From NCBI GenBank assembly GCA_963457665.1, contig OY735207.1, positions 34,515,816-34,579,815 on the forward strand: 64,000 nt of DNA, written 5' to 3'. Every line of letters begins with the position of its first letter. The first letter of the stretch is position 1. Positions 18,945 through 54,796 of the stretch are shown in pieces. Made by a program: the position numbers and the translations under genes. The stretch is from Thysanoteuthis rhombus (lineage: Eukaryota; Mollusca; Cephalopoda; Oegopsida; Thysanoteuthidae). The notes under the pieces were generated by a model, which made no database searches, was not told the DNA's origin, and saw nothing but the letters and a program-made list of their open reading frames with translations.

Positions 18945-19283
18945 TTAACTATGAGTTATAACGGCATAGTCAGTGTCTGGCCTTTGTCCATATTCTGAAC
19001 GACGCTTGGCAGACTTGTGTACAGCGAGTTCCAGTTCAGCGTAGTGGAGTGGGTTTGACCCTTCAACTCGGGGAGAGCGGTGAGGTTTAGGTGGTGGTGG
19101 TGGAGGAGGAGGGGGTAACTCATATGCTTCGTCCATGTTGTCCGTGGCATCCCCGTGGGATGGCAGGAACGCATTTTGTTTGTTTGATTTCAGCTTCCTG
19201 GCTGCTGTTCCAGTATCTTGAACAGAATTGGAGTTGGTATCCGGCCCATCAACCAGGGACGATGATGAGGACTTGTGGTTTTG
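18945..19283 (-). CDS. Terminal coding exon: cytoplasmic tail with ITIM, ITSM and polyproline
   Basis: The exon starts at phase 0 after a strong acceptor (pyrimidine-rich CTCCTTTTTGGCCTTTTCCAG) and encodes 112 residues plus the stop. In order there is a serine-rich segment (residues 302-312), a polar linker, EAYELP (Tyr355), nine prolines (358-366) followed by KPHRSPR as a likely SH3 ligand, then LHYAEL (Tyr382), a second tyrosine in SEYGQR (Tyr399), and TDYAVI (Tyr407) six residues from the end. LHYAEL fits the ITIM consensus (I/V/L/S)xYxx(I/V/L), and TDYAVI fits the ITSM consensus TxYxx(V/I). Family knowledge: phosphorylated ITIM and ITSM tyrosines recruit SH2 proteins such as SHP phosphatases or SAP adaptors. 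Whether they do so here is inference. The proline codons form a GGT/GGA-rich microsatellite on the plus strand, so length polymorphism is likely. Confidence 0.9.
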   Translation of the reverse strand, partial: QNHKSSSSSLVDGPDTNSNSVQDTGTAARKLKSNKQNAFLPSHGDATDNMDEAYELPPPPPPPPPKPHRSPRVEGSNPLHYAELELAVHKSAKRRSEYGQRPDTDYAVITHS

Positions 19284-22200
19284 CTGGAAAAGGCCAAAAA
19301 GGAGTTGGACTGTAGAACACTGGCACTAGCTGTCTTTGCAAACAAGTCATTCAAAGAGATAGAAAATATTAAAATTTAAGAGAAGAAAAAAAAAACAAAA
19401 AAAAAAAAAAAAACACGACAAATTTTTTTTAAAGTAGTGTTTTTTTACTTAACCAAGCAGCGATGGAAGCAAATTCCTTTTATTATTTAAACGGGGAAAT
19501 AGTGTTGCAACTTTCAGTGAAAAAAAGTTATTTGGGTATAGTGCACATTGATCGTGAGCTATTAAAAGATTTGCAGTTCATCTGAGAACAGCATACAGCA
19601 AAGTCACAGCGTACATCAAATAATGGTTGCATGCTTTGTACAGTGTCTGAAGTTGCAGACATTGCATAGTGAGAAGCACTAGCAGATGAACAAAAACATG
19701 CATATATGATAAATAGTATATACAGCTTTTTATAACATCTGGTAGAGTGACTGACCCTTAAAAAAAGGGAAGCAGTGTATGAAGACAGTTGTGTCACAAG
19801 GGAAGAAAAAATAGCATTTTAGAAGGGGGGGGGGACATTTTCCTCCTAACTCCTGGAAGAGAACATGCAGTCCCTTACTGGCTGGTAGGCAGGCAAAGAG
19901 GCAGGCAGGCAAAGGGCTGGAGAATTTGAACGACCATAAAGAAAAAAAAATTTTTTTTTTTTTTATTCCTATACAAGTGAGACATGCAATACCTTAAAAC
20001 CAAGAACATATGATTGTTGACGAGCAAGCACAAATATCAAGTTTGTTTTTCACTATGCTGGGTGGGGAGTATAAATATCTGAATACTCTCCAGAGGACAA
20101 TATTAATCAGACACACACACACATATCTATTGAAAGAGTTTTTTTTTTAATGTTTAAAGCTTACATAACTACATGCAAGTGAAAACATGCAGAAACATAA
20201 ATATACTGTTATTACAGAAACAGACATTTGTCAATAAGCCTTTTTAACCCGTACTCAAACTTCATACAATCATACTGGACCCAGCACTCAAGATCTAAAA
20301 TTATAGTCAGTTGTTTGCAACTGAAAAAGCAGTTTTCAAGTATATAAAAATAAAAAAAAATAAAAATTCTTTTATCTAATGAAAAGGTAGAAATGAACTT
20401 TTTCCATGTCATCTTTATTTATTTACATGTATAGGTGAAGAATAGAGAAATTAGTATACCCTACAGACTGAATAGCATTAATGGAAAGCAGGTATTAGTC
20501 ACGGCAGTGTGCTCAGGATAGAATGAAGACAAAAGGCAAATTTCAAAATGAACATTACATAATTTAGTCAAGGTCCTTTGGCACTGTACATTTCAATACA
20601 AGTAGTGATTATTTAATACTATGATGGATGAACTTCACACTAATTGCCTTGCCTTGTTCTCAAATTTTTTTCTCTTATTTCTCTCACCTCGGAAGAGGTG
20701 AGGATATAAGGGCACAGTAAAATTTACATCAAATCAAGCATAAAAGCCCCAACAATTAAGCCCAAATGACTATATTCAGTGCAACTTTCAGGAACTGCCA
20801 TCCTGGATCAGATAGTTTTGTAAATCGTCCAACTGGGATCATTGGTAAGTGCTGCTGATTTTCTAAGCAAGCCCTCCCCATGTGAAAGATTGGCAAAAGC
20901 CTTCCTGTACTCACTTCATTCTCTCTAGCATTAAGCCAAACTAATCCGAGCATGAATAATGGATCATGGAACACAAGATTTATAAATCTGGTACCTTGAG
21001 GAAGGAATATAAGTACTAAGATAAATAGCTTTCTGTATTATTAGATGACAAGTAATTTTAGATAACTATGACCAGCCTATAAGATTCGACTAAACTATTC
21101 AACTTAGTGGTGTCAACTTCTTCAGGTAAGTTTCTAAGCATTTTTGACCAGTCAGTCAAGTAGGGAGAAAAAAAAAATTTTTTTTTTAAAAAATCATTTT
21201 TATTAAAAAAATAAAAAAAATTATTCAACTTAGTTATCAGGAACAGACTAAGCAGGAATAAACACCAATAATTTCTTGCCATATGAATTTCAAAGATGAC
21301 AATGTAACTGAATTACACTATATAACCTTTCTTTGCTAAGTTCGTTCACTCAGAAACAAGAAAGGAAAAACAATTGCCTACAAGTCAAAAATTGCTTATA
21401 TTAGAATTTATAAACATTGTGACTGCTGCATGTTTTATTCAAAAGAGTAGAGTTTAAATTAAACACTGAGGGACACAGATGTATTCCTAGTCAACAGAAC
21501 TTGCGAAATAGCACATATAAAAAAATTTTTTAAATCCATACCCTTAGCCATGATATCATTCAGAAATAATTATCCCAAATATAAAATGCAATGTGCGCAC
21601 ACACACACACACACACTTTAAGCATAATACATCGAGATAACAAATTTTGGTCTCTATAAAGGATCCTTTTGAAACAGATTTTAGAGAAAAAGGACAAAAT
21701 ATTACATGCTTGATTGTGCTCTTGTGTAGTTGGTTCCACTAAACGGCTATCCCTTTCAAGTCAAGATCAATTTAACTAAAATCCACTGGACATTTTTTTT
21801 TATGTGTAACACTTTCCAATGAATCCAGATACTACACTGATCCAAGGCAGAAGTGTTGGGTAGTGACACTTTGATCCTAGGCAGAGCACACACATACTCT
21901 GATCTGAGGCAGGAGACGATCCATGTCAATAATCTCATCATTTTCGACAGGTACTTTTCTAGTCTTCATATAAAGTATACAAAAGGAAAAAAAAAAACCC
22001 AAAAAAAACTTAAACTTATAGTAAATTTCAAGTCACTTGTGGTAGAGACATTTAACAAGTAGTTTTAGCAAAGTTATTCTGTTCAAATTTTTTGAGACAA
22101 GGTGCTGTTGCTACGATACGATTCTTTCAAACTTATTTCCCTTGTCTGTTTTCATCATGACATTCAGCCACAGTACCCTCCAGCTCTTAAAGCCAAATCA

Positions 22201-24759
22201 GGGGACATCAGTACAAACCTTGCAATAAATACAACAAAAAAAAATAAAAAAAATAAAGATTTGGTCCACAATAATCATTGTAGAATACCCTTAATGAGTG
22301 CTTGGATATTGAGGGCCAAACCCAGAAAAAAAAAAAAAAAAAAAACATTCAGAAATTGTATGCCTATATTCCCTATAGAAACGAAAGCTAAAATTTCATG
22401 AACATCAAAGATCACAGACAAGGAAAATTTTGATGGCATTTGAAAAAATTTTTTTCTTTAATGCCAATAAATGTGATAATTAAATCTTTTGTCACTAAAG
22501 ACTAGTGTATGCAGCAAGTAATGATTCTATGTGCAAACAATCTTCATTTATGAAGAATATAGTTTATCAAGGCAATAAAATACAGCGAAAAGTTGATAAT
22601 TTCAATATATAAACTAAATTTTGATATACAATGAAATTGGCATGAGCCATTGAATTTCAGAAGTAGCACATACAGAAAACAAGGTGGTGAAATATCTTGC
22701 AATCATTGTTCTATCTTACAAAAACCACTAAATAGAGCTAGAGTAAAAGCAAAAAATGTTTTAACCATCATCTTAACGTGAATTAGTGGTACGATTATTG
22801 TTCATACAAGAATACAATAAACCTTTGATAAATAAGATGAACTTGACCAAGAAGAATGATGTACAAATCAAATTCATGTCTCTAATGTACGGTAGATTCA
22901 TTGTCCATAAATTTTAGTTATTTCTTCAGGAAGAAATTATAACAATATTACATGAACTTCCAACCCCAACATAGATATTTGAAAAGCTTCTAAGTTTCAA
23001 ACTTTCGAGATTTTGATCAATCTATTGCTAACTGTCAAAATTTCAAAGATCAAATTACTATTTTTTTCGCAATCAACAAATACATTTTTTTTCACAAGAA
23101 ATAGGTACTTGTACAGGATACATCATTATGGAACGCAAGGACAAATATGTGCTCTATTTTACATTAGTGGGTGTCTGATTCCAGAGAATAGACACTGTCA
23201 CAGTACACGGGTACCTATATAGAACTTTATTGATGGTTGAATGAGCACCATTATGATTGGTCACAATACAAGCTACCCTGAAGAATAATCAATCAAGGTC
23301 AGTTTTCCAAACCAATGTCAATTATACTTTAGCGGCCAGCAGCTGTATATTGATGCTTACTAGGTTAGTCTACAGTTAAAGTGTCAACTAACCTTGTGGC
23401 TTTATGCCAGAAAAGGCCAAGCTTAGTAATTAACTACAAAATAAAAGCCACATGTATTAGAGGACTGTTAAAACCATATCAAGATTCCCTGTTGAATTCA
23501 CTGTTCCAGAATTCAGTCTTTTAGGTGAACCAGATGAAAATTCTAGTCCAATATACAGATGTCTAAGTATTGAATATAAACAGGCCCTTTGAAAAACACT
23601 TCTCACACGTGCCTAGAAACGTGGGCATACTGAGAAACACGTGCTGACAAGCAAGCAAGCTAAGTTTCAACTTCCTTTAACCTTCCCTGCTAACACAGTA
23701 ACATTTCCCTGAGAAAGAGAGATATGCGCAGACAGACATGCAAAGATAGAAGTGTGATGAAAAACAAAGCATAGAGTAGTAGAATACATTGGTCAAAAAG
23801 CAATGATGGCAACTCCTTGCCCCTATGAATATGGTCCAGGTGGACATATCTAGCATACAAGAAAGCTAACGGGGGGTACAAGACGACAAGAACCTCAATT
23901 CTGACACCTATCAATAACTAGCTGGCAGATCAATAGAGAAATCTGCTTCCATTTCTCCACATCAAAGACACTCGATGCTAATCAATACATTTGCCTCTCA
24001 GAGAATGCAGGTATTTCCATTAAGAGAAGCACGAAAGAGAATACCTGCCCCAGGTGCAGGCACTCAATCATCTTTTGCCTCTAAATTAACATGGAAGGAA
24101 ACTAGTTCACGAGAGGGAGGGGAGAAGAGGATCGGCAACAAAAAGAAACAATTTCACTCTTCACTTCACTTTCAGTAAACACCCACTGTGTTTTTTATAG
24201 CAAGTGCAGTGTTCTTCCATGTAATGATTCATATAGTAATGATACACACCTGCAGGAAGCATTCATACTGGTAATGATACACATACAAACCTATCAGAAG
24301 CAATGGCAATTTTATCACTGGTAATAAACATTGAAATTACTGGCTATGACCAGTTACTGATACGATATGCAAATATATAATCAAACAAAGGCAGACAGGT
24401 TCATACACATTGGCTCCATATTCCTAACACTACATCCTTGACAATGACCAAGATGACCGAGTTTAACCTTGGTGGTAGGATTATTTAACCACCATAACCA
24501 GCTTTTAGCTTGTGAGGAGGAAGAAAAAAAAAAAAGAAAAAGAAAAAAATGAAAAATAATGATAATGAGAGGGGAAGACACCTGTGTCATTATATTAGGC
24601 TACTTTTTCAGTACAAAGATGAAGATTTCAAGAGGAAAACAGACAAACACAAATCATTAGTCTGCTTGTTTGTATGTGCAACTGTTACGGTGAGGAAGAT
24701 AAAGGTTGGGAGGAAGAGGATGCGAAGGTGGAAAGCTCATGGGATAAGAAATGTAAGAG

Positions 24760-24795
<36 letters not shown>

Positions 24796-24814
24796 TGAGA
24801 GGAAAAAATAAAAA

Positions 24815-24852
<38 letters not shown>

Positions 24853-27800
24853 TTCCTCTCACCTAGATATATGTATATTATATAAAGAGGGGGACTGGAT
24901 GGAGATGAAAGCCAGACCAGCTTGTTGGCTGGATATCAAAAGACAATGAGTGAAAGATTGAAAGGCAGATAAAAATGGAAAGATGTAAAAATTGCAATAC
25001 ATCAGAATTCTTTAGAGAGTAAAAAGAAGATGCAGTAGAAAATATTTGTCTAGCTAGTAGCAATTAAGTAGAGATACAATAGCAAAAATAGACATTCCTG
25101 AAGGGAAGTCAGATAAAAACAGCCACATAAGGACCAGTCAGTTAAAACAAGTGCACAGCCAAGCATTACATTCTGACATGTTATGGGGACAAAGAAGAAA
25201 AAAAAAAAAAGAAAAAGAGAATTCACCAACCCCCTTTCATTTCTTAAAAGGTAATGAGTTGGGAGGAATTAACTCAATTGGCTAATCAGAAGTTCTTAAC
25301 TGAAAATAAAGGCACTGTTCCCCTTGAGGGGGAAAAAGAATGAACTTTAATTTCTTCCAATGAAGACCTACCCATGTTCATAGTATAGTCATTTCATTTG
25401 TGTTCTCAATATTTATATCAAGGTACTTTTTGTAGCGCGATAGTTGGCTAACTTCACAAAGAGCACTCATATAGTAGCCCAACTTGATTCAAAACCCAAG
25501 TAGTCAATTTCCACAGGAGGAGGAAAAAAAAAAAAAAAAAAAAAATTATAAATTTTGACCTTTTGATGAGTTGCCCTCAAAGCATTTGTCTTCAAGTCCA
25601 GCAAACAATATATAAATATATATATATTAAACAAGTTCATTTTTTTTCTCAAATATTTGCCTTAAATCAAATGTTGAATTCTTTTGGGGCCTAATTTCAA
25701 GATACTCTAAGTATTGATGGCATATACCATTTTAGAAAAGTTTTGTCCTGCCAACTAAATGTCCTGCAGAGAGAAAAATTATCGATTTTCTTCATGTAAA
25801 TGATTATAAAAACAGACTTTTTTTTTCAAGTAAATTTTACAACTTTTGTTTTGACAGGCATATCTTTTATTCTCATCATTTGTTATCACATCTGTTTTGT
25901 CAGGTGTATAATTTGAGGTGGGGGGTGGGGGAGAAGGACGGAAGAAAGGATCAAACAAGATGTGTCGATATTGAAGACATGGAAAAGATTCAATTTTTGG
26001 TCAAAACCACAATGTTAATGACTCATCTCAAAGTTAGAGACGATTCAAGTAAATTTGTACTATGAGGAACAAACAAAATTTGAAGGAAAAAAAGAAAAAA
26101 AAAAAAAAAAACCTCTGGGAAACGTATTGATCAATAATCAATTACAACAAACCCAAATGTGCCAATCAAAAAAACTATGGAGTCTTGTTCAAAAGAGAAT
26201 TTGAAGATTTCTGGAGCAAAACAATTTACTACAAGATACTATGGTGAAAATGTGAAAATGCATCCTATCCAAAAAAGCATGTTAAAGGACCATTAACCCA
26301 ATCCTTTTCTGTAGTATACTGTCATCAAGTAACACTAAGATAGGATTCTCATCAGATGTATGCTTGTGCTTAATGTTTGATTATATTTCTGAAAACATTG
26401 TTTCACTTAGTCAAGGTAAGGTGAAGTGAAGTCAATGAATTGTCTACGTATTTTGATCTGGTGGGATGCATTTGCTCAATTATTCTAGTTAACTAGAAGA
26501 CATTTTTAACAAGTTATGTCATGCTATTGACTGGTTCACTGTTTTATGTCAAACTCAAAATCAATTCATTTTTCTTTACAGTGTAAAAATTTTTTTTCTG
26601 AAATATTTCGAGCTATCTAATAATTTAAAATGAACAGAGATGGATTACTCAATCCAAATCCCAGCCAAAAATAATTCACCCAATAAAACCACTGGTCAAG
26701 TCTCATTGGTATTCATATTGTATAGAGGATTTCTTCTATAAACAAATTCAATACTTGTAAAATCTATGGTATGCTCACACTATGTTGCTTGATGACAGGA
26801 CGAGCAAAAATTTTGAAAACAAGGATTAAAATAAGAAAAAAAAATTTTTTTTTAGAAAAACCACTTGACGCTTTATAATAACTGATAGATATGTAATAAA
26901 TGGTAGCTGAAAGCCAAGTCATGCAATGCAGACAGTTAATACACAAAAGGGGTTGTTTGTAGCAGAAAACTTACCAGCAAAAGGGAAGAAAATGCATGCA
27001 AAGAAAAAAAATGGCTGCAGAGAACACGACAACAACCACAGTAAGAAAGTAGATCTTCACACCTGCAGAAGACTTCAACTGTTTGGTTGAACACTGCTGT
27101 GAACATTCAAGGGGTCTAAACTCCCAAAATGAAGGGCGGGATAGTAATCATTGTTTACGAATGGATAAAAATTTAAAAGAAGAAACAAAAAAAAAGCAAA
27201 CTCTGCACTATCAGCCAGATAATATTGATATTCTGTGGGCAAAATAGGACTGCAAGTAATGGTAAATGTATGACAGACAAGAGATCAAGTGGGAGCATAA
27301 GAAACAAAATCAATAGGTATTTCTTCAAATAACATACGTATATGTACACCATACCCATTCACTTTATTATTAGCAACAAACATCTTCCTACAGATACATT
27401 AACAGCTATTTCTCTTGAGAGAGGTAAAGAAATTGATTAAATCAAAAGGCAAAGTAAACATCTTAGCTTTGTTGCAAAATCTGAAATACACTGTAGAGCT
27501 AAAAATGGCTGCTTTAAAGGAATAATCTAAATTCAAGTTAATGAAATAAGTTATTCTGCCTACTATTTCTTCACTCATTTTCAAAATAATATCTCCATCT
27601 TCGTTGTTTTTGCTTTGAGCAGCAAGAAATATGGAGTGACATCTCAAAATTGCCAGATGCACCATACACCCAAAACATTGGATCAAAATAAGGTAAAGAC
27701 ATCCGTACCTTGCATAGGTGAATCACCATAGCCCATGCATGTACTAGAATGTTTAAGTTTTGGTTGACCATTTCTAATATGACCAAAATAATGGTCCGCA

Positions 27801-29490
27801 TGCATATCAGAACAATTATTGAAAAAAAAATATACCAGTACAAGATTTGGGTATTGTTGGTGAATAATGACTATCGACCCCAAAACAAGAGACATCTTTA
27901 GACAGTGTCTAGTGGTGTATTCATGCAAATTTCCAAGGTTGTAGTCCAAAAATTGTGACCTGGAGATACACACGAAGAATTTGTAGCCCTCTTGTCAGGT
28001 TGGTCAGGCCATTTGTGCGGGTTATGGTGATTCAATATTATTAAATAAGCAGAATGAAAATATTTTTTTAAAAAAAGAAAAAAAAAAGGGGGTAGGAAAC
28101 GGGTACTGGCATTTCCTATACAATACTCTACATATTTTTCCAACACAAGAATTTCAAGCAGAGAATTGATGAAGTTGTTAGAAGCCATTTGTTTGCAATT
28201 CAAATAGTTTTTATTCCTCTTGGATTTGATCAAAGCAAAATGTGTCGAAAGGTCAAATAAATAATATTCAGTACGAGTTGGGTAAGTAATCCTCATTTAT
28301 TGATCTGCTTGCCTTAGAATATCAAACTAAAGCATCAAGAGGGTCTCCTTAGAATGAATCACTCATTTGCTTTCTTCAAGAATCATATTACTATTGGCAA
28401 ATGATTATTTTGCTCAAGCGAAGGAACCTAAGTAGGGTAACAGGAGAAGATGATCAAATACTTCTACCTGAGAAAGATTAGTGGATACTGATCCAAGAAT
28501 CATTTTTTTTTTTTAAATAAGAGCTTGAATTTCCTGCACATAAAAAGTGCCAAGAAATAAATAATTGGGAGAAAAAAAAAACCAAAAAAAAAAACCCAAA
28601 AAAAAAAAAAACCAGACAAACATCAGGTTTGTGATTTTCAAGAATATGCTGTAGCGTTCTCAATTGAGTTGTTTTGTAAAGAAAATATCAAGAGCCCCTT
28701 ACAAATTATTCAGCTCTTATATATAAGTGCAGAGAATGAATGATATTCAAGATACATAATCCATATACTTAATATTCACTGTAGAAAGATTTCAACCTAA
28801 ATGACTGTCCAACTAATATTATGAACATGAATTTCTTCAAAATTATGCCAGATGAGGTTTTGGGAAGTTAACCATTAATCATACAATGAATCTTAATGAC
28901 CACACTCAAGTATTTGACTCACACTCAAGTGAGATTTTGAAAAATGTTTTGATATCAAGTTGTTGAGAAGCTGTGCATCATCACTTCACTTTAAGGGTAA
29001 ATGCTTTCTAATGCCTACAGTTACTGAGTCCAAAGGCATTTTTTGAAGTTCTCACCAAGAGGTAATCTTATGTTACATTCCTTCATCATATAGGAATATA
29101 ATCAGATATGGTATGACCTGTTAGATACAGTGCATTAAAAGAATTATTTGAAAGCAAACAAGGACCAGCTGGATGACTGTTTTCAGAGCAAGACGTTTCT
29201 CTCGGAAAGAGACATGTTTAGGCTGAAGAGAAAACTATCTTTGCTATGTTACCATTCTTTTCCCTTCTATATTTTTTTTTTTCACTGAGCATATAAGTGC
29301 ACACAATGTTATTTTTGGTAGCAGCATATCTGAAAGCCTAATGAGTCAAAAGAGACAAAACAAGTAGTTGGGAAAATAAACAGAGTGAAGATTTTTGGCA
29401 GCAAGCTTCAGATCTTATTCTGTTGAGAGGACATGCAGGGATGGGCATTGGAGGCTGGAAGTCTTCAAATCAGGTGAAAAACCCACTTAC
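19284..29490 (-). other. Intron of 10.2 kb between the two last coding exons
   Basis: Flanked by donor GTAAGT (29490-29485) and acceptor AG (19285-19284). It contains a CA microsatellite (21599-21616), a 34-nt A-run with a TA microsatellite (24760-24849), and further A-runs at about 22326-22345, 25524-25545 and 26095-26111. Short open frames (for example 19528-19797, 27571-28296 on minus) show no recognisable domain. I saw no further exon that would keep the phase 0 to phase 0 join. Confidence 0.75.
24760..24849. repeat. A34 tract plus (TA)n microsatellite
   Basis: A run of 34 A is followed by a short purine-rich spacer and an uninterrupted TA dinucleotide run of about 31 nt. This is the longest homopolymer in the window. 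Confidence 0.95.
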
Positions 29491-29548
29491 TTTTTTTAAT
29501 GGATCAACCGTTGCATAAAGAACATTATCTTGTACCTGGTAATCCTTG
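29491..29548 (-). CDS. 58-nt exon carrying the first ITIM-like motif
   Basis: Bounded by acceptor TTTTTCTATTTGCAG and donor GTAAGTGGG. One base completes the alanine codon begun in the previous exon, then 19 codons read KDYQVQDNVLYATVDPLKK. VLYATV (Tyr293) fits the ITIM consensus (I/V/L/S)xYxx(I/V/L). DYQV (Tyr285) is a second tyrosine. The exon ends in phase 0, exactly matching the start of the terminal exon. Only one reading frame is open through the exon with the correct phases. Skipping this exon would shift the frame and destroy the downstream ITIM/ITSM tail. Confidence 0.87.
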
Positions 29549-30930: not shown

Positions 30931-30967
30931 GCATTGGGTTCTGGACCTTGATCTTTGGAGGCTCCAT
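30931..30967 (-). CDS. 37-nt juxtamembrane exon
   Basis: Bounded by acceptor ACTCCACCCTTGCAG and donor GTAAGTCTA. The first two bases complete an aspartate codon with the preceding exon, 11 codons follow (GASKDQGPEPN), and two bases are left that become alanine with the next exon. It is a polar, proline-containing linker just inside the membrane with no known motif. Its reality rests on good splice sites and on phases matching on both sides (1 in, 2 out). It is short enough to be missed by most gene finders. Confidence 0.83.
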
Positions 30968-33059: not shown

Positions 33060-33091
<32 letters not shown>

Positions 33092-33283: not shown

Positions 33284-33397
33284 CTGCTTTGAGTCGCTTG
33301 GGTCTGATTATCAAGAACCAAACAAGGAGTACAACCAACACTATTAAGGCAATGATTCCAAGGACTATGCCAACAATGCCACCAGCCTCAAGACCAG
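33284..33397 (-). CDS. Transmembrane exon
   Basis: Acceptor TTTATTTTTAAAG and donor GTGGGT bound an exon of 114 nt, phase 1 at both ends. It encodes 37 whole codons: GLEAGG, then about 24 hydrophobic residues (VGIVLGIIALIVLVVLLVWF region, residues about 238-262), then the basic stop-transfer RPKRLK. The basic residues on the C-terminal side give a type I topology, with the Ig domains outside. Small-residue spacing (G..G...G) near the outer end could help helix packing. Because the exon is a multiple of three with symmetrical phase, its removal keeps the frame and would give a soluble protein. Confidence 0.93.
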
Positions 33398-36300: not shown

Positions 36301-39077
36301 AACCGATTATGGTGCTTAAAACAACAACATGTCCTAGCTGACTAAAAGATCCAAAGGTATATATCCCAGCAGTCATAAGAATCATACATCCCAAGTCTTA
36401 AAAATGGTTAAATCTACTTGAAGTTATTCTCGTATTGGTCTCTGTATCTAACCATACACCAGAGTTTCAACATTCAAATCTTGATATTCAAGTTATAAAC
36501 CATGGTGCTTCAAGCAAAAACAAATAAGATGTAGGAATCAGTATACATCATTACATATGGCTTTAATAGATTTATTTTAAACACAGATAGTATCGACTTT
36601 CAAACAACCATATAAGGTATTTTAAAAGGAGAAAGAAAAAAAAAAAAGAAAAAAAAAAAGAAAATCATCACGATGCACACAAAAATAAAGTTATACTTTT
36701 CTAAGTTGTCCTCTAAAAACCCAATTCTCCTTCAACCTAATGTCACATGTGGTCAAAGTAAATTCAGGTCAGTCCAGGTTTTGTTAGTTAACCCTTTGTG
36801 AAGCATGGCAGGTTGGATGAAAATCATCAGCTTAAGAGGTAACAAAATTAGTACAAACAATTGTAGCAGTATAATTCCCGTGATTGGTTTCAATGTACAG
36901 AATGTTTATATCAAACATATAGCTATTTGTAAGATATAAAAACTTAATTCTGTGATTTGTACAATAAAATGAATTCAGAACTATTAATCTATGCCAATTC
37001 TAGGCCTTTCATCAGCATAAATATATATATTTTCAAAATGTTTGATTTTAGCATTCAAAATAAGGAAAAGAAAAGCAACATCACCCTTTCAAATCACAAC
37101 ACATGCTGATTGTGCAACTGTAGAAGGTAACTAAGGTTGAGAAAAGAATGAAGCAGTTAGTGTTATTTATATAACTTATGAAAAGTTAGGTCTTTTTCTT
37201 TTGTCTCCACCAAAATTTTCCTTTTCTTCATAATGATAAAAAATAAGGGGAAAAAAAAAAAAAAAAAAAAAAAATACACTAAATAAGGCTGGGTCTTTTC
37301 TTGTTAGTTCCTCCAGCAAAAATGAAAAACAAACCTGGATATATGTGCGTACATATTTGTGGAGGGGAGGTGTGAAAAAGTAATCGTCAAAACCAATGGG
37401 AACTAATTAAAATGCCACAAAATACCATGCCCCATATTGCTTATTTTTTTCTCATTTCAAACTTTTGATAGAATTAGCCTCTTCAGGCAAAGCTACAAAA
37501 ATCTGAAAACTTAACTTATCTGGAACCCAATAAAAATACCAGATTGACCATTCAGGAAAACAGTTCAATTGTTTTGATTCTACAAAATCAAATTTCTGAA
37601 AATCTGACCCTGAATTAATACCAGGAATTGAGTTTCTAGTTGGCAAGACAAAGAAAATGCATCTCCCCCCCTCCAAGTTTCTGCACTTCAAAATTATGGT
37701 TGTTAACTTTTAGTGGGGACTAATGAAAAAGCCCCCCAATAGTTGGGTTTAATGAGAGATAAATTGGAATAGATTATAAAATGGTAGAAGATACTATAGC
37801 AGCAGAGGATAGAATCAGGTTTGAGTTGAGGATAATTGAAAATTTGGAGAGCAAGGCAGGAGAATCAAGGTGCACATGAGCTTGTAAAAAAGATAGCTAA
37901 AGCGAAGGGAAAAAAAGGGGGGGTGGAGAGCTGTTGATTCACCGTGACTGATATACGAGTTTCAAAGATGGACCTTCAATCACAGATTAATTATATTCAT
38001 CCATTTCAGTGAAATTTGTCTATTTCCAAACTTTAATAGGAAAAAAAAAAAAAAAAAAAATCAGGTATTTGCCAGGTATTTAAATTAGACAATGTTTGAA
38101 TGTTAAATAATAGCTTACTCATAAGTATTTATCCCAGAGCAAAAATTTAGAGGAAAAAAAATAATACATACAAAAACTAAATTATAATAAGAGTTAAGAG
38201 ATTCATATCAGACATTTGAATTTGGAGAAAAAATTTACGAAATTTGAATAAAAAGCAGAAGTTTAGATTAGCAATTTTAATCTAATAACAAAAAATTGGA
38301 TAATCAAATCATCTGCAGCTATACAAACATTTTGAACTCTGCCAATAGATTAATGAGAATATATTATACACACATATTGGCAGGACAGTACCTAAGTTAG
38401 TAGCATTAATTGTAGCGCACATTTTAAATTAAATCGGGAATATAGATCATTTTCTATTTTTAATATTTTTTGTACAGGCACAGCTTTGGTTCAACTAGAT
38501 CATATGGTTTCACAACACGAGGAGGTAGTGATCTTTCAATATTCTGACATTTTAAACATACAATTATTCCTCCCCGAGCTTAATTATTTGGTGAGAATGG
38601 GAGGGGGGGGGTGAAAAAAATGGTGGGAGGGCATCAGATGTGATAGAATTTTTAAACCAAGCCACATCAACTATTATAAACACTAAGAATAGAGATATAA
38701 AAAAAATCAGCTTACAGGAAATTCAAGAGCAAAAAAAAGGAGATAGACTGTTGAAATATATTTCAGCTTCAATTAATTATTCAACACACATCTATTTACA
38801 ATGTTTTTAAATGACACCCCCCCCACTTGAATGCACTTCACTTCGATAACCATTGGAAAATAAAGCTCAGAGTATTAAAAAAAAGTGTGTGCTATGAAAA
38901 TACTGAACAAAAACATATGAGGGATCCAATAAAATGCCATGCATCAAATCATTTTAAGTTTGACTCCATGAAAACACTTGACTATCATCTATCACATTCT
39001 TGTCTATTAGGTTGTATCATAATATAATCACACAAATATAGAATACAGACATTTTCCAGAGCAGAATTTAAACTTAC
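33398..39077 (-). other. Intron of 5.7 kb
   Basis: AT-rich with A-runs at about 33759-33774, 37251-37274 and 38041-38060, a GT microsatellite near 35430-35450 and poly-G/poly-C runs. Open frames at 34308-34616 (minus), 35486-35774 (plus) and 37452-37691 (minus) were inspected. None has good splice sites together with a clear domain. Confidence 0.7.
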
Positions 39078-39122
39078 CTTTAACAGGCTGTGGGATAAAG
39101 GTAACACCAACTGTGGACATTT
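39078..39122 (-). CDS. 45-nt stalk exon
   Basis: Acceptor CTTCTATTCCAG and donor GTAAGTTTAA bound 45 nt with phase 1 at both ends. Two bases complete a glutamate codon, 14 codons follow (MSTVGVTFIPQPVK), and one base is left for an alanine codon shared with the transmembrane exon. It forms the short membrane-proximal stalk between the second Ig domain and the membrane helix. It has no cysteine or N-glycosylation site. The symmetrical phase means it could be skipped without loss of frame. Confidence 0.85.
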
Positions 39123-41470
39123 CTGGAATAGAAGCATGCAGGTGAATCATGCAAAACTCGACTGCTGCACATTCTAAAATGAATTGTTACAATGAAATAA
39201 ACTATTTCAAATACTAATATGGAAAAAAAAAAACAAAAAAAAACCAAGACATGCAAATATATACTAATCTGATCAGTGAGACAGGTTGTTATTTGACCCT
39301 AAGATTGGCGAAGGGAGTGACATACATTTAACCCACAGTATCAGGGGTAGCAGCAATTGGAGAAAATTCAATCCCAAATACCATTTTCTGACATCCCATA
39401 GAACACATTTTTTTCAAATTACTGCTCACAGCATTTCATCATTAGTTTGAACTTTTTGACCTCTGTCCATAAGCATATGAACAAATGATATCACTACCAA
39501 AATCAACCCATTTATGCCTAAAGTTTGACTTTCCAACCAATTTTGGTACAATCAGAAATGTGGTGAAATGTTTGTGCCATATATTTTGTTTTTACATAAT
39601 TCAAAAAGAGAGGGGAAAAAAAAAAAAAAAACAGCTCGGGAGAGATGATGCTCGTGCAATTTTCTGATCTATGAATACCACCTATATAGATCTTTAAATT
39701 AAAAAAGTATTTGAGAATTTTCTTCGAAGTCACAGTGGGAAGGACAGTATGTCAATGATGAATAAATCAGACAATAGATTTAAATATAGATATATCTAAA
39801 TTCAAATTCAACTATACAAGATTAATTAAAAATCAAATTTCATTCAAAGTTTAAATTGTGAGAGGATAAGCAGATCAGTCATTCATTTACATTTATGAAA
39901 AAAAAAAAAAAAAAAAAATTTACTTATATCAGCATGGTATTTGTTAAAAAAACTGAAAGCATATTTTTCCTTTTCTTTCACAAGTATCTTTTCTAAAGCA
40001 GTTTTTTTTTTAAAGTGCACTAAATATAGACCAATATGGGTTAAATACATTGACACTGTATTAGAATGTAGTAGTGATATTCTTAGACTATTCACCAACA
40101 CTGCTATGATAGTTCATCAGCAAATATAAAACAGTCAGCAAGGCGATAATCTTATCCAATACCAGTCTGATAGGCATCCAAGTATAATACCACATCACCA
40201 ATACAATGGCTTAATGAAGTTTTGCACTAGTATATAAGCTGATCACAGCTGGACCAAACAACGTTATATGACACTTCTTTGCTGGTATCAATTAAAATAA
40301 TGCACCTTTCTATGAATATTCTTAGTCACCCTTCAAAATCTTGTTTAGTGCAACTTCATTTCTATAACCCTCTTCTAAAGTGTATGTATGTAATGGAATG
40401 GCCAGAGGAGAAACTAAAGAAAGAAAGAAAAACTTGGTGTAAATATTCAGATGATGTTCTCTGGATAACACTCAACAGTGTATAATGCATTGAATCATAT
40501 TTTATGAATTCGTAGTGTATATCTTTAAATAATACTTCTATGTAGATGATTCATGTTATTCTACCCACAGGAGACACCAAGTTTTTCTGTTAGCTGACAG
40601 AATGAAAGGCATGTCAGGTGAGTGTCTCCCCCAAACAAATCCTTTTATTATTAATATTCATAAATAATTCCTTACATATATTTCATATTCGTATCATACT
40701 TGTATATAATGGAATAATCCATATGAAATTATTTCAAGTCATCTGTTATGTAATCTGGGAACTGTTTTTCTAATTATTCCCATTTCCCCTTAAATCTTTA
40801 ACCCTCAAGATCATCGCAAAATAAGCCCCACTAAACTGGACTTAGAGCCATAGCAAAGCCACCAGTAAAATGGGTTGTTTGAGTTTTTTGTTATAAACAG
40901 CAATTTAAAGAAATCCCAGGAAAAACTGGCATAATCATGAATTTATGACAAACTGCTGAAAATGGTATCCGAACAAAATTTTCATCCTTTTTCCGAGTAG
41001 TAATTTGACACTTGCTTAAAATATCTATATGTATCCGTATACTAGCAACGTCTTTTCAATAAACAAAAGATATGAAGATTAGCCTTATCTAACACAAGGT
41101 CAGAAATAGAGGATTCAAAAAGGGTCAAAATTTTCTAGCAATGGCTTTTGAAACTAGCAGGTATATATGGCAAATGTATCACTGTCTGCTATACATACTG
41201 GCTTTTAAAAAGTCATCTATGAAGTCATCTCTCAAGTCAGGTTGGCAATCTGATAGCAATAAGTTAAATATTTAAGCAATCCTAAAAATACCCAAATGAT
41301 GATACAAGAAATGTTCATAGATTTTAAATGAGCAAGTTATATCGTTATTCATTTGACATATCAAAAGAGGGCCAGGTGCCTATGGAGCAAATACAATATG
41401 TAATGCTCTAGGAGTTTAGAAGAGACAAAAATGCTGAAGGAGTAACCTGAAATATTTACAGTATTTATGG

Positions 41471-42163
41471 GATTGATTTTCAAAATGGAAAAAAAATTGC
41501 TGAAGATGGTTTGAAAAGTTTAGATAAGTTAACTCAAGATATCCACCAACAAATAGGTTGTCCTGTTGAGTTGAATGACAACCCCGTTTTAGTTAGAACT
41601 TAATAGAAATAATGCTGTTACAGTTGAAGAATTGACTTGAAAAATTGAAGTCAAGCCATTCAACAGTTCACAGTCAACAACAATACAGGAAAAACATTCA
41701 TGATTTGGCAGAAGCCAACCATGAAGCAAGTGTAGATCTGCACTCTCCTGTAACCATCATTCTTTAACAGATTAGTGATGACAAATTGATATTTTATAAG
41801 TTACAACAATACAAACCGATAGACAATGGCTATCTGGAGGTGAAAAGGCTAAAGCACAATACATACAAGGAAAGTTTTGGCTAAGATTGCATAGGTGCAG
41901 TGTACTTGGAGTTACAACTAGTCAATGTTACAATTATAGCATACACCTATTAACAATAGTTAGATCATTTAAACACGGCTTTGAAGGAAAAGCCCAGTAA
42001 GATCAATCACACAGGTATGGTATTTCATCATGATAATGCAGTGCTCCATACATCAGAGAATACATCTGAAAACAATGGAGGTCTTGTCTTGGGGGAGAAA
42101 AAAAAAATTCCACCACATCCTTATTACCTAGATCTTTCTCAATTTAATTACCATTTATTCTGA
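41471..42163 (+). pseudogene. Mariner-family transposase relic
   Basis: Broken pieces of a mariner (IS630/Tc1 superfamily, DD34D type) transposase are readable in the plus direction. They include DFQNGKKIAED near 41475, an ISDDKLIFYK segment near 41773 corresponding to the region of the first catalytic aspartate, CIGAVYLELQLVNVTI near 41890, ALKEKPSKINHTGMVFHHDN containing the second catalytic aspartate (frame 41981-42163), and HPYYLDLSQFNYHLF, where the usual catalytic SPDLAPSDYHLF has become YLDLSQFNYHLF. Several stops and frameshifts separate the pieces and the total is shorter than a full transposase, so it is inactive. Terminal inverted repeats were not identified. Confidence 0.85.
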
Positions 42164-42419
42164 ATTTTACAGAACAATTCTGATGGACTACTTAAAATAT
42201 ATAAAAAGGTCAAAACTACCCTACCAACATTCTTTTCCTAGAAACCAAAACACTTACAAAATCAGTATAATGAACAAATTCTGATTAAATATACATTTTT
42301 GATTTTTTTTTTCTGACCTTAAATTCAGATATTACTTACAAGATGACTTGATACAAACTGAAGCTTTTCAATGCAAGACTAATTGAATTTAGTAGTAGGG
42401 AGGGGGGGGGGAGATAAAT

Positions 42420-42420
42420 T

Positions 42421-42478
<58 letters not shown>

Positions 42479-42484
42479 GTGTGC
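42420..42484. repeat. Compound A / (AT)n / (AC)n microsatellite
   Basis: A run of about 15 A passes directly into about 36 nt of AT dinucleotides, then a short ACACAC and GTGTGC tail. Confidence 0.95.
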
Positions 42485-43126
42485 GTGTGCTTTACAAAAC
42501 AAAAAGTGAACAAAGCATAATCTAATACAAAGACAGAAAAAAGAAAAACAATATTCATATCAAACTAATGGAAGGGGCATGAATGTATTACTCTGATGAT
42601 TGAAAGAAAAAAGATCTAAGATTTTCAGGAGTTGGGTACAGATCCCCCCCCCACACACACCAAAAAAAAAAAAAAAAAAGTCTAGAATAAAATTCTGTGA
42701 AGAAGCATTGTTATTCTATGATCTGTTTGGAATAGGGTTTTTATCCTAGTTTCAGCCAAAGTGTTCTTCACAGAGTCAGTGTCAAAGGACATTAAACATT
42801 TTCAATGCTCTGTCTGCTGAGCATCTGAAAACCTTGGAACTTTAGATATTAAGTAGTTGTATTCCCATATAGTAATACAAGTAATCTTTGCAAGTAATCC
42901 AGGATTTAAAAATCACAAAAGTCTTGAAAAGAAATTTTATTTACTATGTAAAACTAATAAAAACAATTGGCAATTATTGATTTTAATTCATAATCACAAA
43001 AACACTTATTTCAAATACAAGTCACTTTAAAACAAGCTATTATACTTAGCTCAATTCTTAATGCCAGATTTACATAAGATGAAATTCATTTTGCAGTAAA
43101 CATAATGGTCTCCTTACGAGTTTAGC

Positions 43127-43158
<32 letters not shown>

Positions 43159-43873
43159 AAATGTAGACCAGTGAGATTTGATCTAACAATCTCAACATTG
43201 ATTATGAACAGAAATCAAACATTGGATAGATGAGGAATACAATAAAAAAAATTAAATAAAAGATAACACTACAGCACTGGTTATGAATACAGACAAATTT
43301 AAAATCATTCAACCGGTGCTGCATTCAGGCAAAGAATGAACGGCCAAAATATTGTGTTGAGACAAAGATGCAAAAAAGTTTCTTCATTGATGATATTAAC
43401 CCCTTTCAAAAATTTCAAAGTTAGAGCAATACTGGCATACTTAATTTACTCATGAAGATTCATCTTAGATCATGTCTGCAGAAGTGACATTTATACCATT
43501 TTTCATCAAATAATCAGTAATACATTTATACAAGGTTAATATTGATTTCATACGAATCTCAGAGGCTAGGATGATCAGTTTCGTAGACAAGGATTCCAAT
43601 TTTCAATAGAGCATGATGTATTTTATAGATTAAGAATATTTCTTAGATGTCACGTCCCCAAGAGAAAACCCTCAATGGACTATGACTGCTCAGTGTCAAC
43701 TGAGTGATCCAAGTCAAGTCGAGACAAGGACTTTATACCTCCAAGTTTTTATGATAACCCCCTAAGCAGAATGTAAATCCACCGAAGAGATACCTCTAAC
43801 CTAATCTCAGACTCAATTAGCTGCTTAGTGCACAGGGAAATTTATCCTAATGAAGAGTATACCATATTTTTCA

Positions 43874-43950
43874 CTCGTACTGGAATCAAACCCAGGACAT
43901 TCTACTTGAGAAAGAAACAAGTTAACCATTACATTATCCAAGCGGACTAA
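43874..43950 (-). repeat. tRNA-derived SINE-like head
   Basis: On the minus strand an A-box-like TAATGTAATGGTT (43924-43936) and a strong B-box-like GGGTTTGATTCCAG (43880-43893) occur at tRNA spacing. Surrounding bases do not form a clean cloverleaf. The downstream sequence differs from that of the elements at 5174 and 62788, suggesting a separate SINE family. Confidence 0.55.
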
Positions 43951-45016
43951 GAATATTTCCATAGATTTAATTTTTGTTAGGCTGAAGATTATTCTATACA
44001 GTTTTAGCCCTGAAGGCAGTTATACCCATTTATATTCAAAGAAAATATTCCCATGGTTCAACTTCCATAAGCAATTGACGAATTTAATCATAAAAAACTG
44101 AAGGAAGCAATACATAAGTTCAAAATTCGAACTTAGAATTCATAATTTTCTATTACTATTTACTTCTAAGACGCTTTAGATGAAAAGCACCAGTACTTAT
44201 TGGTGATTTGGTAATCTTTGGATTTGGGTTCAAGCAATTTTAACCATTAACAAAACTGACTACAGATGCACAAGATGAACAAAATGGCATCACGAATAAA
44301 TGATATTGGTGGTTAGAATAAAGTTTAAACGCGCGCATGCATTTACATGCACACAAATGTGACACGAGTGCTTTTCTCTGAAAACTTCCTATTTTGACAG
44401 AATCAGAATGAGTAACCGAGCATTTTGATAATTGTAAATCGAATTTTTTTGAAAATCAGGTTGAATGTAAAATGACTTGCCATCAACTGCTTTTTATCTA
44501 CGTTTGATCATCTATCTTGTATATCCATATACTATTCGTCAACATTATATTTCACACATACCCAAATCCAAACATTGCCAATGATTTTTCCACAAACAAA
44601 TGGTGCGTATCAACTGGATAGAATTTCATAGACTGAAGTAAATTGTGGGATTTATAATTAGATTCTAAAAGACCATTTTTTCAAAAACTTGGCATTTTCT
44701 TCATCTTTTGTCAGAACTAAAATGTTGCTTATTCTTATATACTTTGATAAAAGACAGACATCAAGTTTTCATGATCAATACAAGTACAAAATCAAAGGCA
44801 AAGAAAAAAAAGTACAATCTATAGTTAAATCAAAAGGTTATACTTCAAAACTGTCCAAAAAGAATCAATCAAAAAGGTCCAGTCTTTGTATACTTCTAGT
44901 TAAGAGATTAACTTAGTTTTCTTCAATTCAAAGGGTTTTTTTTATTAAAGTTATGAAATCTGGTTAAAATATGCCATCCACTAAAATAAAATAATGACAT
45001 GTAAAAACAACTATAC

Positions 45017-45331
45017 CTTGAACAGTAAAGTTCCCCATTCGCTGAACCGTTCGTTCACCTTCTATTACACACCATAGAATAACGGTTGGTATATCAGTGT
45101 CACTTATGTTGTACTTAACCGAACTTAAAACTTGACGATGACATCCATCAGTGTGGGTTACTCGAGTATTTCCCGCAGTGAGCTGGGAGGAAAGGGTGAT
45201 AGTTCTCTGATACCATTTCACAGAATAAGGGCCTTCTTTACTGATGGATCCTATGCACTCAAAGTTCGAATTTTGATGGACCACAGGTTCACCAGTCGAG
45301 ACTTTCCTTATAAGATCGACTGTTGGCAATA
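45017..45331 (-). CDS. Immunoglobulin-like domain 2 exon
   Basis: Acceptor TTTTTTTTATTTTCAG and donor GTATAG bound 315 nt with phase 1 at both ends, the classical arrangement for an Ig domain exon. It encodes 104 codons. Visible Ig landmarks are the B-strand cysteine in NFECIGS (residue 137), the C-strand tryptophan in VKWYQR (151), and the F-strand cysteine in ILWCVIEG (199), which would form the core disulphide with Cys137. An extra cysteine lies in TDGCHRQ (175). N-glycosylation sequons are NIS and NFT. The G strand ends in NFTVQ at the exon border. This fits a C2/I-type Ig domain, but the exact set cannot be decided by eye. Confidence 0.92.
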
Positions 45332-46291
45332 CTGAAAATAAAAAAAACCCATAAAACCAATTATTCAAATATGTCAATCATAAAACCTGTAAGTGAAAAG
45401 AATTACACTTCCTGCACACTATTTTCTTTGCTTTTTACCACCATGTGAGCTTTCATTAATATGAAATATCAAGTGTCTATTTGTCTAGACCTGTGATGAC
45501 AGACCTGTGATGACAGACCTGAGACATGCCAGTTTTTCAGGTGACAGTTTGAAATTATATTTTATTAAACTTAAAGTTTTATAGATAGATACATTAGAAA
45601 AAAGGCTGCTTAGCCTATCAATAGACATTAACAGAACTAAAATATAGTAAACCCTTGCTATAATGAATTATAGCTTCAACACGTGCATCTATCAAAATTG
45701 ACTTACTGTACTAAGCTTGATAAATGCTGCGAACATGTGGACCATAAAAAACATAACATAAACCTAACATTAATTTCTCATTTTCAATTTTAAATGTTAT
45801 TATGGTTGAACTTCAATCATTTTCTCCATGAATTTTAATATACAATAATTCACCAAATGTCCATCTACATGTGATCCTAAAACTCAAACAGCTAGAGCTA
45901 TTATCAAATTTTCTGTGGTTATTAATCAGATCCTGGAGTAGGCCCTTAGTGAGTTTTGGGAAGTTCCTCTCCTCAGAAGTTTTGGGTAGAGGGCTCATTT
46001 TGCAATGGAAGTTTCTGCAAAATTAGTATAAACTCAGTGACTCGAGTTCAAACTCCAAGTGAAACTCGTAGTCCATCTAAATGTTTCTTAAATCATTTTT
46101 GACAGCGATTTACTTTGACCGTAGATTTGAATTCATGCTAAGAGTCTCTGAACTGCATGGAATCCCACCCCCAACAGTGAAAAGAAACCATTTCTCCACT
46201 TCTAGGGTCCCGAAAATGGATTAAAGTTCAGATCCAAAAAACAATTTCATTACTCGTTATGGAGAACGTGTGAAGAATTCGAAGTTCTTAC

Positions 46292-46454
46292 TCTGAACAG
46301 TTAGATCCATGTATACATAATTGTCAAAACACAGGAATAACTTAAACCCAGCGAAAGTGTTTACACCAGTTAATTGCGAACAACAACAATTACATGCACA
46401 ATAGATGAGATACATGTGAAAGTTATCTTTCCTTAATCTCCAGGTGAACAACAT
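46292..46454 (-). pseudogene. Possible relic of an Ig-domain exon (E-F-G strands)
   Basis: On the minus strand the frame ends with LTGVNTFAGFKLFLCFDN followed by YVYMDLTVQ and a donor-like A|GTAAGA. This resembles the end of an Ig domain: AGxKxFxC for the usual D-x-G/A-x-Y-x-C motif, and DLTVQ for the G strand. It matches the way the true domain 2 exon ends (NFTVQ, then one base, then the donor). The upstream half of a domain (B-strand cysteine with proper spacing) is not recognisable. The only acceptor-like AG nearby gives the wrong phase for joining domain 1. It may be a decayed duplicate exon, or the resemblance may be chance. Confidence 0.35.
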
Positions 46455-46582
46455 CTTGGGCAGTATATCATGTTGGGTGTGATCAATTAAAAAATTAGAA
46501 AAAAGGTGATCAATGTATAAGTTACTTTGAGTTTAGTTAGGTGATCACTAAAAAGTCGGGGGGGGGGGGGTCTTTTTTCTCC

Positions 46583-47288
46583 AGCTGAAATAGCATTAGT
46601 GAGCATTTCCCCCCGTTGATGTATTAAAAGATCTGACAACCCTGGTTCTTATGATGGAAGCAGTGGGGTATGGTTCTCCCATCAGAAGTTATTCTCCATG
46701 AATAGAGTTTTTGATTCACTATTGCCACGTTTTTGTTCATACACAAACCCTAATAAGTTGCATTGAAAAGGTGGCAAATCTATTGTATTCAAATTATTGC
46801 AGCAATCTAAGACTGTGATATTATGTAATAATAAGCACTCAGTACAAAATAGTTTCTCCAAGTCATTTACTTTTTCTTCAGAAACAATGAAATAAAATGT
46901 AATAGGAGGGAGAAAAAAAAAGACCCATCTTGTTTCTGGAAAGGTTTATTCCAAGACAGATACATGGTTACAGTTATTCATTTGTAATGACTCAAATTAA
47001 CTTTGGTATTACTTTCACTGTGTTCAAAAGGAGTTGAATAATATTCAACACATTTTCCATTACATGTTGAACAAAGCAACTCACAGGTTTTATTCAGAGA
47101 TGTTTTCTCACCAATTTGTCACTAGATAAGTTCATTAAATGAGAAAACTAGAAAACAATTTAGAACCTATTGGCATAAGTTTTTTGATCAGAAATTCTTT
47201 TATACTACATTGTTTATAAAAAGGCAAAAGCCGAGGTTATCTTGGCTCATTTTTCGGTTAGCCAAGGTAAAATGTTCCCTCCCGCATA
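46583..47288 (+). repeat. Duplicated block, copy B (direct repeat with 3261-3970)
   Basis: Near-identical to copy A over about 570 bp, then clearly more diverged over the last 130 bp or so. It lies in the intron between the two Ig exons and is preceded by a poly-G run and a T-rich stretch. I see no terminal inverted repeats or target-site duplication. Confidence 0.93.
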
Positions 47289-48401
47289 TCATTGTGAACA
47301 TTGCTGGACACTAACTTGGGGACCAGTTTAGCACTAACTTACATTGTAAATTGAACTACTTTAATTTCCTCCAAAAATCTTCATATAAAATTTCCCTACT
47401 CATTGAGGAGTATAGGTAAACAACTGTCTCTACTATGAACAGTTATTAGTGAGAGTAGTCCAAATACGCACATTTATATACTATTGCACAAAACCACAAC
47501 CTCTTCTATGTTATTACTGTATTGTTTGAGCATAACATTTGCGGTAGTGCAATAAGAGAGCAAGAAAAGGCTGTGAAATTCAAACTTTATAAGAGATTAA
47601 AATATCAATTTTATTTGAAATATCAAATATTTTACTGAGAGAGAAGGGGGAGAGATTATGAATTCATAATCATGTCATGATAAAACATTCATTCTGACCA
47701 TACTTTTCTTGGAAAAGAGTTTTATATTCTGACAACACTATTTTTCATAAGTTTTGTTTTTTTTTCCCCCCACATTTAAACAATTTCCCCAAAAATATTT
47801 TGGGATATAACAGGTTTTTATTTTTTGTCAGATGAAACTGGATTTCAAGTACTTCAGTTACTTCCCTTCACTTCATCGTTAAATTGTTAGGGGATGAGCG
47901 TTTCTGAAAGGATAAAAACTGATGGGAACTTCTATTCCCCCTCCCCGTCCCGTGTAATGCGAGTGTGTAGGGGGAGGGGTTACTTTTAAGTATCAAAATC
48001 GAAAAGGAACTTCCCCTTTCCTGATTAGTTTTCTATATAGAAAGATTCTTCTATCTTTAGTCAACTACCCAACACCCACTTCCTACCTAATTAAACTATT
48101 AATGAAGATTTACTGCATCATCAACAGCAACCTTTCATCGTTAGTCATTGGATATAGATAATCACCAGGATTTGCCAGATCTCTATCATGGGTGTCGCAG
48201 AACCAACCTAGAGTGTTTCTTTGCTTGATTTAGACCCCATACATGTCAGATTAATGCAAAATATCTACCAACAACAGTTCCTTCCTCAGTTCACAGACTC
48301 GGACCCCTTTCAGCTTGAAAATGGCAGCAGATTATGTAGAGGTAATCAATCGAAATAAAGGGGTGATCAATGAATAAGTAACTTCTCGCCTTTTGTTAGA
48401 C

Positions 48402-48435
<34 letters not shown>

Positions 48436-48660
48436 AAATTTTCCAAAAGCAGCAGTAGAGACAAACTAAGTGACTAATTTAGCATTAACCTACATTAAAA
48501 TTCAAAGTTCACCATCACAGGTCAAGATGGTCATTTTTCTCTTCAAGCCAATTGCCGATTTCTACCCACCCCATCATTCCAAGACAAAATCAAATCATAC
48601 ATTATCAGTTCTTAAAGACAAATGTTTTCGATACATGAAATCATTTGTCTTAATTCTTAC

Positions 48661-48993
48661 CTTGCAAGGTTTGATTGTTGGAATCCATACTTGTAAAATC
48701 TCCGTTCACCTTACACACGTACCATGTGAAGTCCGCACACTTTAGCCTCGGAAAGATAAAAGTCAGAGAACCTTTTTTTAATGTTGTTCCAACGGAAACA
48801 TTCAGAGAGATTTGTTTATTTGGAGCCAAGACAAACGTACGTTTGTCCATCATGTAATTTGTGGTAATCATTTCCCCCCCCTGGGACAAGGAAATTATTG
48901 GTGCTTGCTGATCTGCCTTAAAATCACATGTTACTTTAAATTCTGTGTTTAGAGCGCCATATAAAGACGACATCCTCATTGCTACATTGAGAC
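48661..48993 (-). CDS. Immunoglobulin-like domain 1 exon (most 5' exon found)
   Basis: Acceptor CTTTTTCCTTTATTTCCAG and donor GTAAGAAT bound 333 nt with phase 1 at both ends. The 110 whole codons show an Ig-like pattern: the B-strand cysteine in FKVTCDFK (residue 23), a D/E-strand region with NVSVGTTLKKGSLTF, and CADFTWYVCKVNGD with cysteines 86 and 94. Cys94 is the likely F-strand partner of Cys23. The usual C-strand tryptophan is missing; PIISLSQGG occupies that place. Two N-glycosylation sequons (NVS, NQT) are present. Phase 1 at the 5' side requires an upstream exon, most simply one encoding the signal peptide, which I did not find in the window. Confidence 0.88.

Positions 48994-54761: not shown

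Positions 54762-54796
<35 letters not shown>

Follow-up and report, generated by a model that had tools for sequence, protein, structure and literature searches.

A candidate ITIM/ITSM-bearing immunoglobulin-like receptor gene in the squid Thysanoteuthis rhombus

Introduction

The question raised by this locus is whether a squid genome encodes a surface receptor built on the plan of the inhibitory immune receptors of vertebrates. The stretch analyzed (the window) comprises 64,000 nucleotides of the Thysanoteuthis rhombus assembly GCA_963457665.1 (contig OY735207.1, positions 34,515,816 to 34,579,815), and the gene in question lies on its minus strand as seven exons between window positions 18945 and 48993. 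The initial annotation of the window had read these exons as a type I membrane protein of an invertebrate, with two immunoglobulin (Ig) domains and a tail carrying two immunoreceptor tyrosine-based inhibitory motifs (ITIMs) and one immunoreceptor tyrosine-based switch motif (ITSM). The data presented here point, on balance, to an inhibitory, SHP-recruiting receptor that belongs to a small Ig-like family of this mollusc.

Results

Exon structure

The exons, called E1 to E7 here in the order of the protein, are as follows.

E1, 48661..48993, minus strand: Ig-like domain 1 (Ig1), with a third conserved cysteine (C86 of alignment A1); paralogous exons on C18 and C22
E2, 45017..45331, minus strand: Ig-like domain 2 (Ig2), with a third conserved cysteine (C64 of alignment A2); paralogues 41-42% identical; PDB profile matches to Ig folds
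E3, 39078..39122, minus strand: stalk of 15 residues, symmetrical (phase 1-1), so that skipping it would keep the frame
E4, 33284..33397, minus strand: transmembrane helix, then RPKR
E5, 30931..30967, minus strand: short juxtamembrane exon
E6, 29491..29548, minus strand: membrane-proximal ITIM VLYATV
E7, 18945..19283, minus strand: last exon, with YELPPPPPPPPPKP proline run, ITIM LHYAEL, ITSM TDYAVI and the stop

Joined together, they form an open frame of 412 residues that ends in a stop codon. All seven exons have AG/GT borders, the intron phases are 1, 1, 1, 1, 2 and 0, and the phases agree at all six junctions, which bears out the initial claim that the exons join in phase. The protein runs from Ig1 and Ig2 through the stalk and one transmembrane helix to a tail of about 150 residues, and its four N-glycosylation sequons are all on the ectodomain side.

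Control counts of the exon patterns were made on both strands of the window and of 17 other genome stretches (468,000 strand-bases, 438,000 of them readable), with splice scores and an open frame as the only requirements. The stalk pattern occurred once, at E3 itself. The E4-like pattern occurred six times (0.20 expected), one occurrence being E4 and another falling within an Ig1 exon of C18, and the E6-like pattern occurred four times, with the motif present in E6 alone. There were ten occurrences of the E5-like pattern, with 0.08 expected in the intron that holds E5. E5 is the weakest of the seven, yet E4 and E6 cannot be joined without an exon of that phase. Other candidate exons in the mechanical list fit the frame as well, such as 27870-27709, which lies between E6 and E7, has phase 0-0 and carries a hydrophobic run. 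A further hydrophobic candidate, 27096-26975, was not used because it is out of phase with both E6 and E7. Taken as a whole, the exon anatomy of a receptor gene is well supported by the sequence, and the seven exons probably belong to one transcript.

No signal exon with a donor score of at least 2.5 was found in the remainder of the window upstream of E1 (48994-64000), and 17 weaker rows there (donor score of at least 0.5) were rejected. The candidate signal exon lies outside the window, about 35 kb upstream of E1 (C10:34,599,845-34,599,779, minus strand); it encodes MEFLSLTLTVGCFLMGLPYLSE and has the correct phase and the donor AAG/GTAAGT. When all retrieved sequence was scanned for an ATG exon that has a donor of this kind and encodes a hydrophobic run, using a threshold fixed after a first look at the candidates, there were two matches: this exon and one on C18, where it lies 3.8 kb upstream of the paralogue's Ig pairs. 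Both finish with Glu and a split Gly codon. The C10 exon is a candidate, and a nearer one could hide in unreadable upstream sequence. The label of type I membrane protein therefore stands in part: the transmembrane helix is clear, but the seven exons contain no signal peptide and the label depends on this candidate exon outside the window.

Cytoplasmic tail

The tyrosines of VLYATV, LHYAEL and TDYAVI are Y315, Y404 and Y429 in a 435-residue model. The consensus forms used are those given in PMC8631942: VLYATV and LHYAEL fit the ITIM, [SILV]xYxx[ILV], and TDYAVI fits the ITSM, TxYxx[VI], as the initial annotation had proposed. Three of the six tail tyrosines lie in such motifs. When the 151-residue tail was shuffled 100,000 times, at least three ITIM/ITSM motifs appeared in 57 of the shuffles. 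All three real motifs have alanine after the tyrosine, and three YAx[LIV] appeared in 4 shuffles and three [ILVT]xY[ATV]x[ILV] in none, both of these patterns having been picked after the motifs were seen. The three motifs exceed chance expectation.

Many receptors are reported to keep alanine one position after the phosphotyrosine (pY+1) of their ITIMs, and placing it into PD-1 reportedly suffices for SHP1 recruitment (PMC8631942). The tyrosines of LHYAEL and TDYAVI are 25 residues apart, and Y223 and Y248 of PD-1 are likewise 25 residues apart (PMC7078208). With motif tyrosines at 315, 404 and 429, and 21 residues from the end of LHYAEL to the tyrosine of TDYAVI, the tail has no pairing of the immunoreceptor tyrosine-based activation motif (ITAM) kind. 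The ITAM rule is two YxxL/I spaced by 6-12 residues.

A possible partner for such a tail was found elsewhere in the genome, where five family matches fall in order within 14 kb.

C20, 56,985,779-56,999,537, plus strand: SH2, SH2, SH2, PTP, PTP, with profile spans SH2 1-53, SH2 41-77, SH2 1-61, PTP 40-82 and PTP 131-177

These pieces make up a candidate tandem-SH2 phosphatase, in the arrangement expected for a Corkscrew/SHP gene.

Ectodomain and family

The two ectodomain exons are divergent. A Pfam scan of the protein (expectation value, E, up to 10) gave no Ig family, neither V-set nor I-set, although the HMMER filters discard most weak matches; the four Ig1 members of alignment A1 likewise gave no Ig family, V-set included. 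In contrast to this, PF13895 was matched by two of the three Ig2 members, both of them C18 paralogues (best E 0.013), and the Ig2 profile drew 23 PDB matches, 22 of which have an Ig fold (21 antibodies, which are abundant in the PDB, and one Beaten path), with one unrelated. The best of these has an E of 0.0038, and the best single stretch of that chain has an i-Evalue of 7.9. None of the six PDB matches of the Ig1 profile is an Ig protein: five are CD40 ligands and the sixth is a ribosomal protein. Additionally, a C18 pair aligned to a single-chain variable fragment across both Ig1 and Ig2 (E 0.029), and AlphaFold, run on single sequences, gave models rich in strands but of poor quality (predicted local distance difference test scores of 45 and 43). 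Ig-family genes typically devote a single exon with phase 1-1 borders to each domain, and this structure is found here. Both exons are likely divergent Ig domains, Ig2 with more confidence, so that of the two Ig domains originally claimed the second is the better supported and the first has neither a Pfam match nor a PDB profile match to Ig.

Each domain keeps a third cysteine, C86 in all four rows of A1 and C64 in all three rows of A2, located in the E-F region of Ig1 and before strand E of Ig2. From their positions, these cysteines could bridge the two domains. Some matches were set aside: one to cadherin-1 in the PDB (E 0.0028) spans the transmembrane helix and a few preceding residues, and those to androgen receptor and Cox6b arise from the low-complexity proline run.

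Searches for relatives covered one genome, the 2.73 Gb assembly in 514 contigs. With the entire protein as query there were 11 matches (E up to 1), of which five fall on this gene, four on C18 and two on C22. The C18 matches are four Ig exons (E 3.0e-20 to 7.3e-14, 35-40% identity), and those on C22 are two Ig1-like exons with in-frame stops (19,095,345-19,097,760; E 2.7e-5 and 0.10), so this locus looks like a broken, decayed third copy of the family. A C18 pair as query gave 10 matches (E up to 10), at the same three loci and on C11 (E 0.49, seven stops), and a single Ig2 from C18 gave three. Apart from the gene itself, the window held no match below E 0.15. On C18, the exons are laid out as Ig1-Ig2-Ig1-Ig2 in 5.3 kb, after one good candidate signal exon; because there is just one weak signal candidate between the two pairs, C18 may be one four-domain gene. 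Transmembrane or tail candidates beyond its last Ig exon were rejected as microsatellite or unsupported.

The ratio of nonsynonymous to synonymous substitution rates (dN/dS) was 0.47-0.71 across six pairs of ectodomain exons, by a simple counting method and with dS of 0.72-1.15. Bootstrap upper bounds were 0.77-1.21, and the fraction of bootstraps at or above 1 ranged from 0 to 0.093. The Ig-like domains are constrained yet fast-evolving, as recognition domains often are.

Genomic surroundings

The molluscan origin of the sequence agrees with the invertebrate genome supposed at the outset. PF14830, the beta-sandwich domain of molluscan haemocyanin, has 52 matches in the genome and none in 14 control genomes, a control that does not separate animal groups (the three controls named are microbes). 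Nine equal-scoring copies of the haemocyanin domain lie about 2.18 kb apart on C25 (56,607,734-56,625,492), which reflects either recent amplification in tandem or an effect of the assembly. On C45, dozens of PF00047 Ig exons form a dense plus-strand run at about 23.81-24.26 Mb, many of them 1-2 kb apart; this could be a giant multi-Ig gene, similar to hemicentin, or an expanded array.

Within the window, a repeat of 720 columns, 96% identical between its copies and with a shared frame of 87 residues, occurs at 3254-3970 and at 46574-47287, the second copy being in the intron between E1 and E2. Positions 1581-2069 are a minisatellite of units of about 30 bases, open in several frames. Frames at 15395-15782 and 49934-50926 resemble, by eye, pieces of reverse-transcriptase elements, and Pfam on the two frames submitted gave no such family. 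Rfam at gathering scores gave no matches, and the last exon had no match in a phage collection.

Discussion

We lean towards the reading that this gene encodes a single-pass surface receptor that is inhibitory, recruits SHP and belongs to a small molluscan family of Ig-like proteins, because several lines of evidence agree: the exons and their phases, the excess of motifs over shuffles, alanine at pY+1 in all three motifs, the PD-1-like spacing of 25 residues, RPKR following the helix, the four sequons on the ectodomain side, the SH2-SH2-PTP order on C20, a candidate signal exon ahead of each family locus that is not broken, and ectodomain exons that are fast but constrained (dN/dS as above). 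Beyond the anatomy, we infer a single transcript, phosphorylation, SHP binding, inhibition, a ligand and a cell type. In the model proposed here, the two-domain ectodomain would bind a ligand, and upon engagement a kinase (of the Src family, by analogy) would phosphorylate the tail tyrosines. The LHYAEL-TDYAVI pair would then dock both SH2 domains of a phosphatase of the SHP/Corkscrew type, with VLYATV by the membrane as a possible third dock, and the docked phosphatase would dephosphorylate locally and damp nearby kinase signalling. The self/non-self or checkpoint role put forward in the initial annotation is likewise a hypothesis.

Several observations weigh against this model. The C20 phosphatase is known solely through its family matches, and the Ig1 profile drew no Ig protein from the PDB. 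No relative of the tail was detected elsewhere in the genome (three of its 13 matches are this gene and ten have E above 1), and no transmembrane exon or tail of the C18 paralogue was found in about 43 readable kb past its last Ig exon. Two strict ITIMs alone are less striking than the three motifs, since they appear in 928 of the 100,000 tail shuffles. The candidate exon 27870-27709, hydrophobic and in frame between E6 and E7, would upset the topology if used. Finally, YATV, YAEL and YAVI also satisfy the YxxPhi consensus for endocytosis.

Among the other explanations, the one deserving most attention, though we think it unlikely, is that of a receptor for cell adhesion or wiring, comparable to the insect Beat and DIP proteins, with tail tyrosines that tune adhesion or the cytoskeleton through SH2 and SH3 proteins and no immune brake. 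The weak PDB matches do include DIP-eta (E 0.053) and Beaten path Vb (E 0.22), and the proline run of E7, with its PPPKP, could be an SH3 or profilin ligand. However, those matches are not significant, antibodies and Fc receptor III-A (E 0.61) appear beside them, and three motifs with alanine at pY+1 are many for a plain adhesion tail. It should be noted that the two readings are not exclusive, since PECAM-1 combines adhesion with SHP recruitment. It is improbable that the motifs serve mainly as YxxPhi signals for AP-2 in a recycling or scavenger receptor. While all three have V, L or I at Y+3, as the YxxPhi rule requires, that rule needs neither V, L or T at Y-2 nor A at Y+1, which are common to the three motifs, and it was the pattern combining such positions that was absent from every tail shuffle.

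The least probable explanation is that the seven exons are not one transcript, either because the tail exons belong elsewhere, because E5 is false or because an additional exon is spliced in. The last intron is 10 kb long, other in-frame candidates exist, such as the one described above, and E5-like patterns are expected at about 0.08 per such intron. Against this, the phases agree throughout, E3-, E4- and E6-like patterns are rare, and the transmembrane helix, tail motifs and stop come in the order of a receptor.

Turning from these explanations to the preferred reading of an inhibitory receptor, the likeness to Siglecs, PD-1 and SLAM is one of shared plan with no detected sequence kinship. 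No PD-1, SLAM or Siglec relative was found in three PDB searches (13, 13 and 11 matches listed) or in Pfam, and at phmmer sensitivity none of the 13 PDB matches of this protein at E 10 belongs to the PD-1/SLAM family. As in PD-1, an ITIM is followed at the same distance by an ITSM, TDYAVI here standing against TEYATI in PD-1. PD-1 has one Ig V domain, whereas there are two Ig-like domains and an extra ITIM here. The residue at pY+1 of the ITIM is Gly in PD-1 (PMC8631942) and Ala here.

Mammalian Siglecs combine V-set and C2-set Ig domains with ITIMs (PMC5877582), similar to the ITIM tail and two Ig-like domains here; the present protein has no Pfam V-set or I-set match, though its first domain is divergent. 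CD33 has an inter-domain bond (PMC7426717), and the third cysteines described above, one in each of two adjacent domains, could form a similar one. Oyster CgSiglec-1 is a molluscan protein with two Ig domains that inhibits apoptosis and phagocytosis (PMC5877582). The fester co-receptors (FcoR) of Botryllus are likewise type I receptors of an invertebrate, with Ig domains and a tail bearing an ITIM or hemITAM, but they are built of a V-Ig, a sushi domain and two C2-Ig domains and occupy 53 loci (PMC12065747), compared with three loci found here; no sushi domain was detected by a Pfam scan of this protein or among the seven exons. Hydractinia Alr proteins are also invertebrate Ig-like receptors, and ITIM/ITAM motifs occur on candidate allorecognition genes (PMC12065747); they form a 41-gene family in an allorecognition complex (PMC11999971), whereas there is no cluster at the window. 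Another transmembrane Ig receptor of a mollusc, oyster CgIgIT2, also carries a tyrosine motif in its tail but has five Ig domains and an ITAM (PMC11999971), while the motif spacing here lies outside the ITAM rule given above. A literature search, mostly without subscription papers, found nothing pairing ITIM with cephalopods. ITIM-type invertebrate Ig receptors are already published, and the gene described here adds an ectodomain family that Pfam does not recognize.

A broader reading, which we offer as speculation and consider doubtful, is that of a molluscan paired-receptor system that evolved separately from those of vertebrates. One member would combine a PD-1-like tail (an ITIM and an ITSM 25 residues apart, and another ITIM close to the membrane) with a two-domain ectodomain that evolves fast and is braced by disulfides. 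A four-domain relative on another contig would have the same kind of ectodomain and might lack the inhibitory tail.

If the tail does recruit the SHP of this mollusc, then checkpoint-style ITIM/ITSM inhibition would operate here on an ectodomain unmatched by sequence to vertebrate receptors. This would support the idea of an old kinase-phosphatase decision circuit whose receptors change, and it would provide a testable handle on how molluscan cells curb attack on self.

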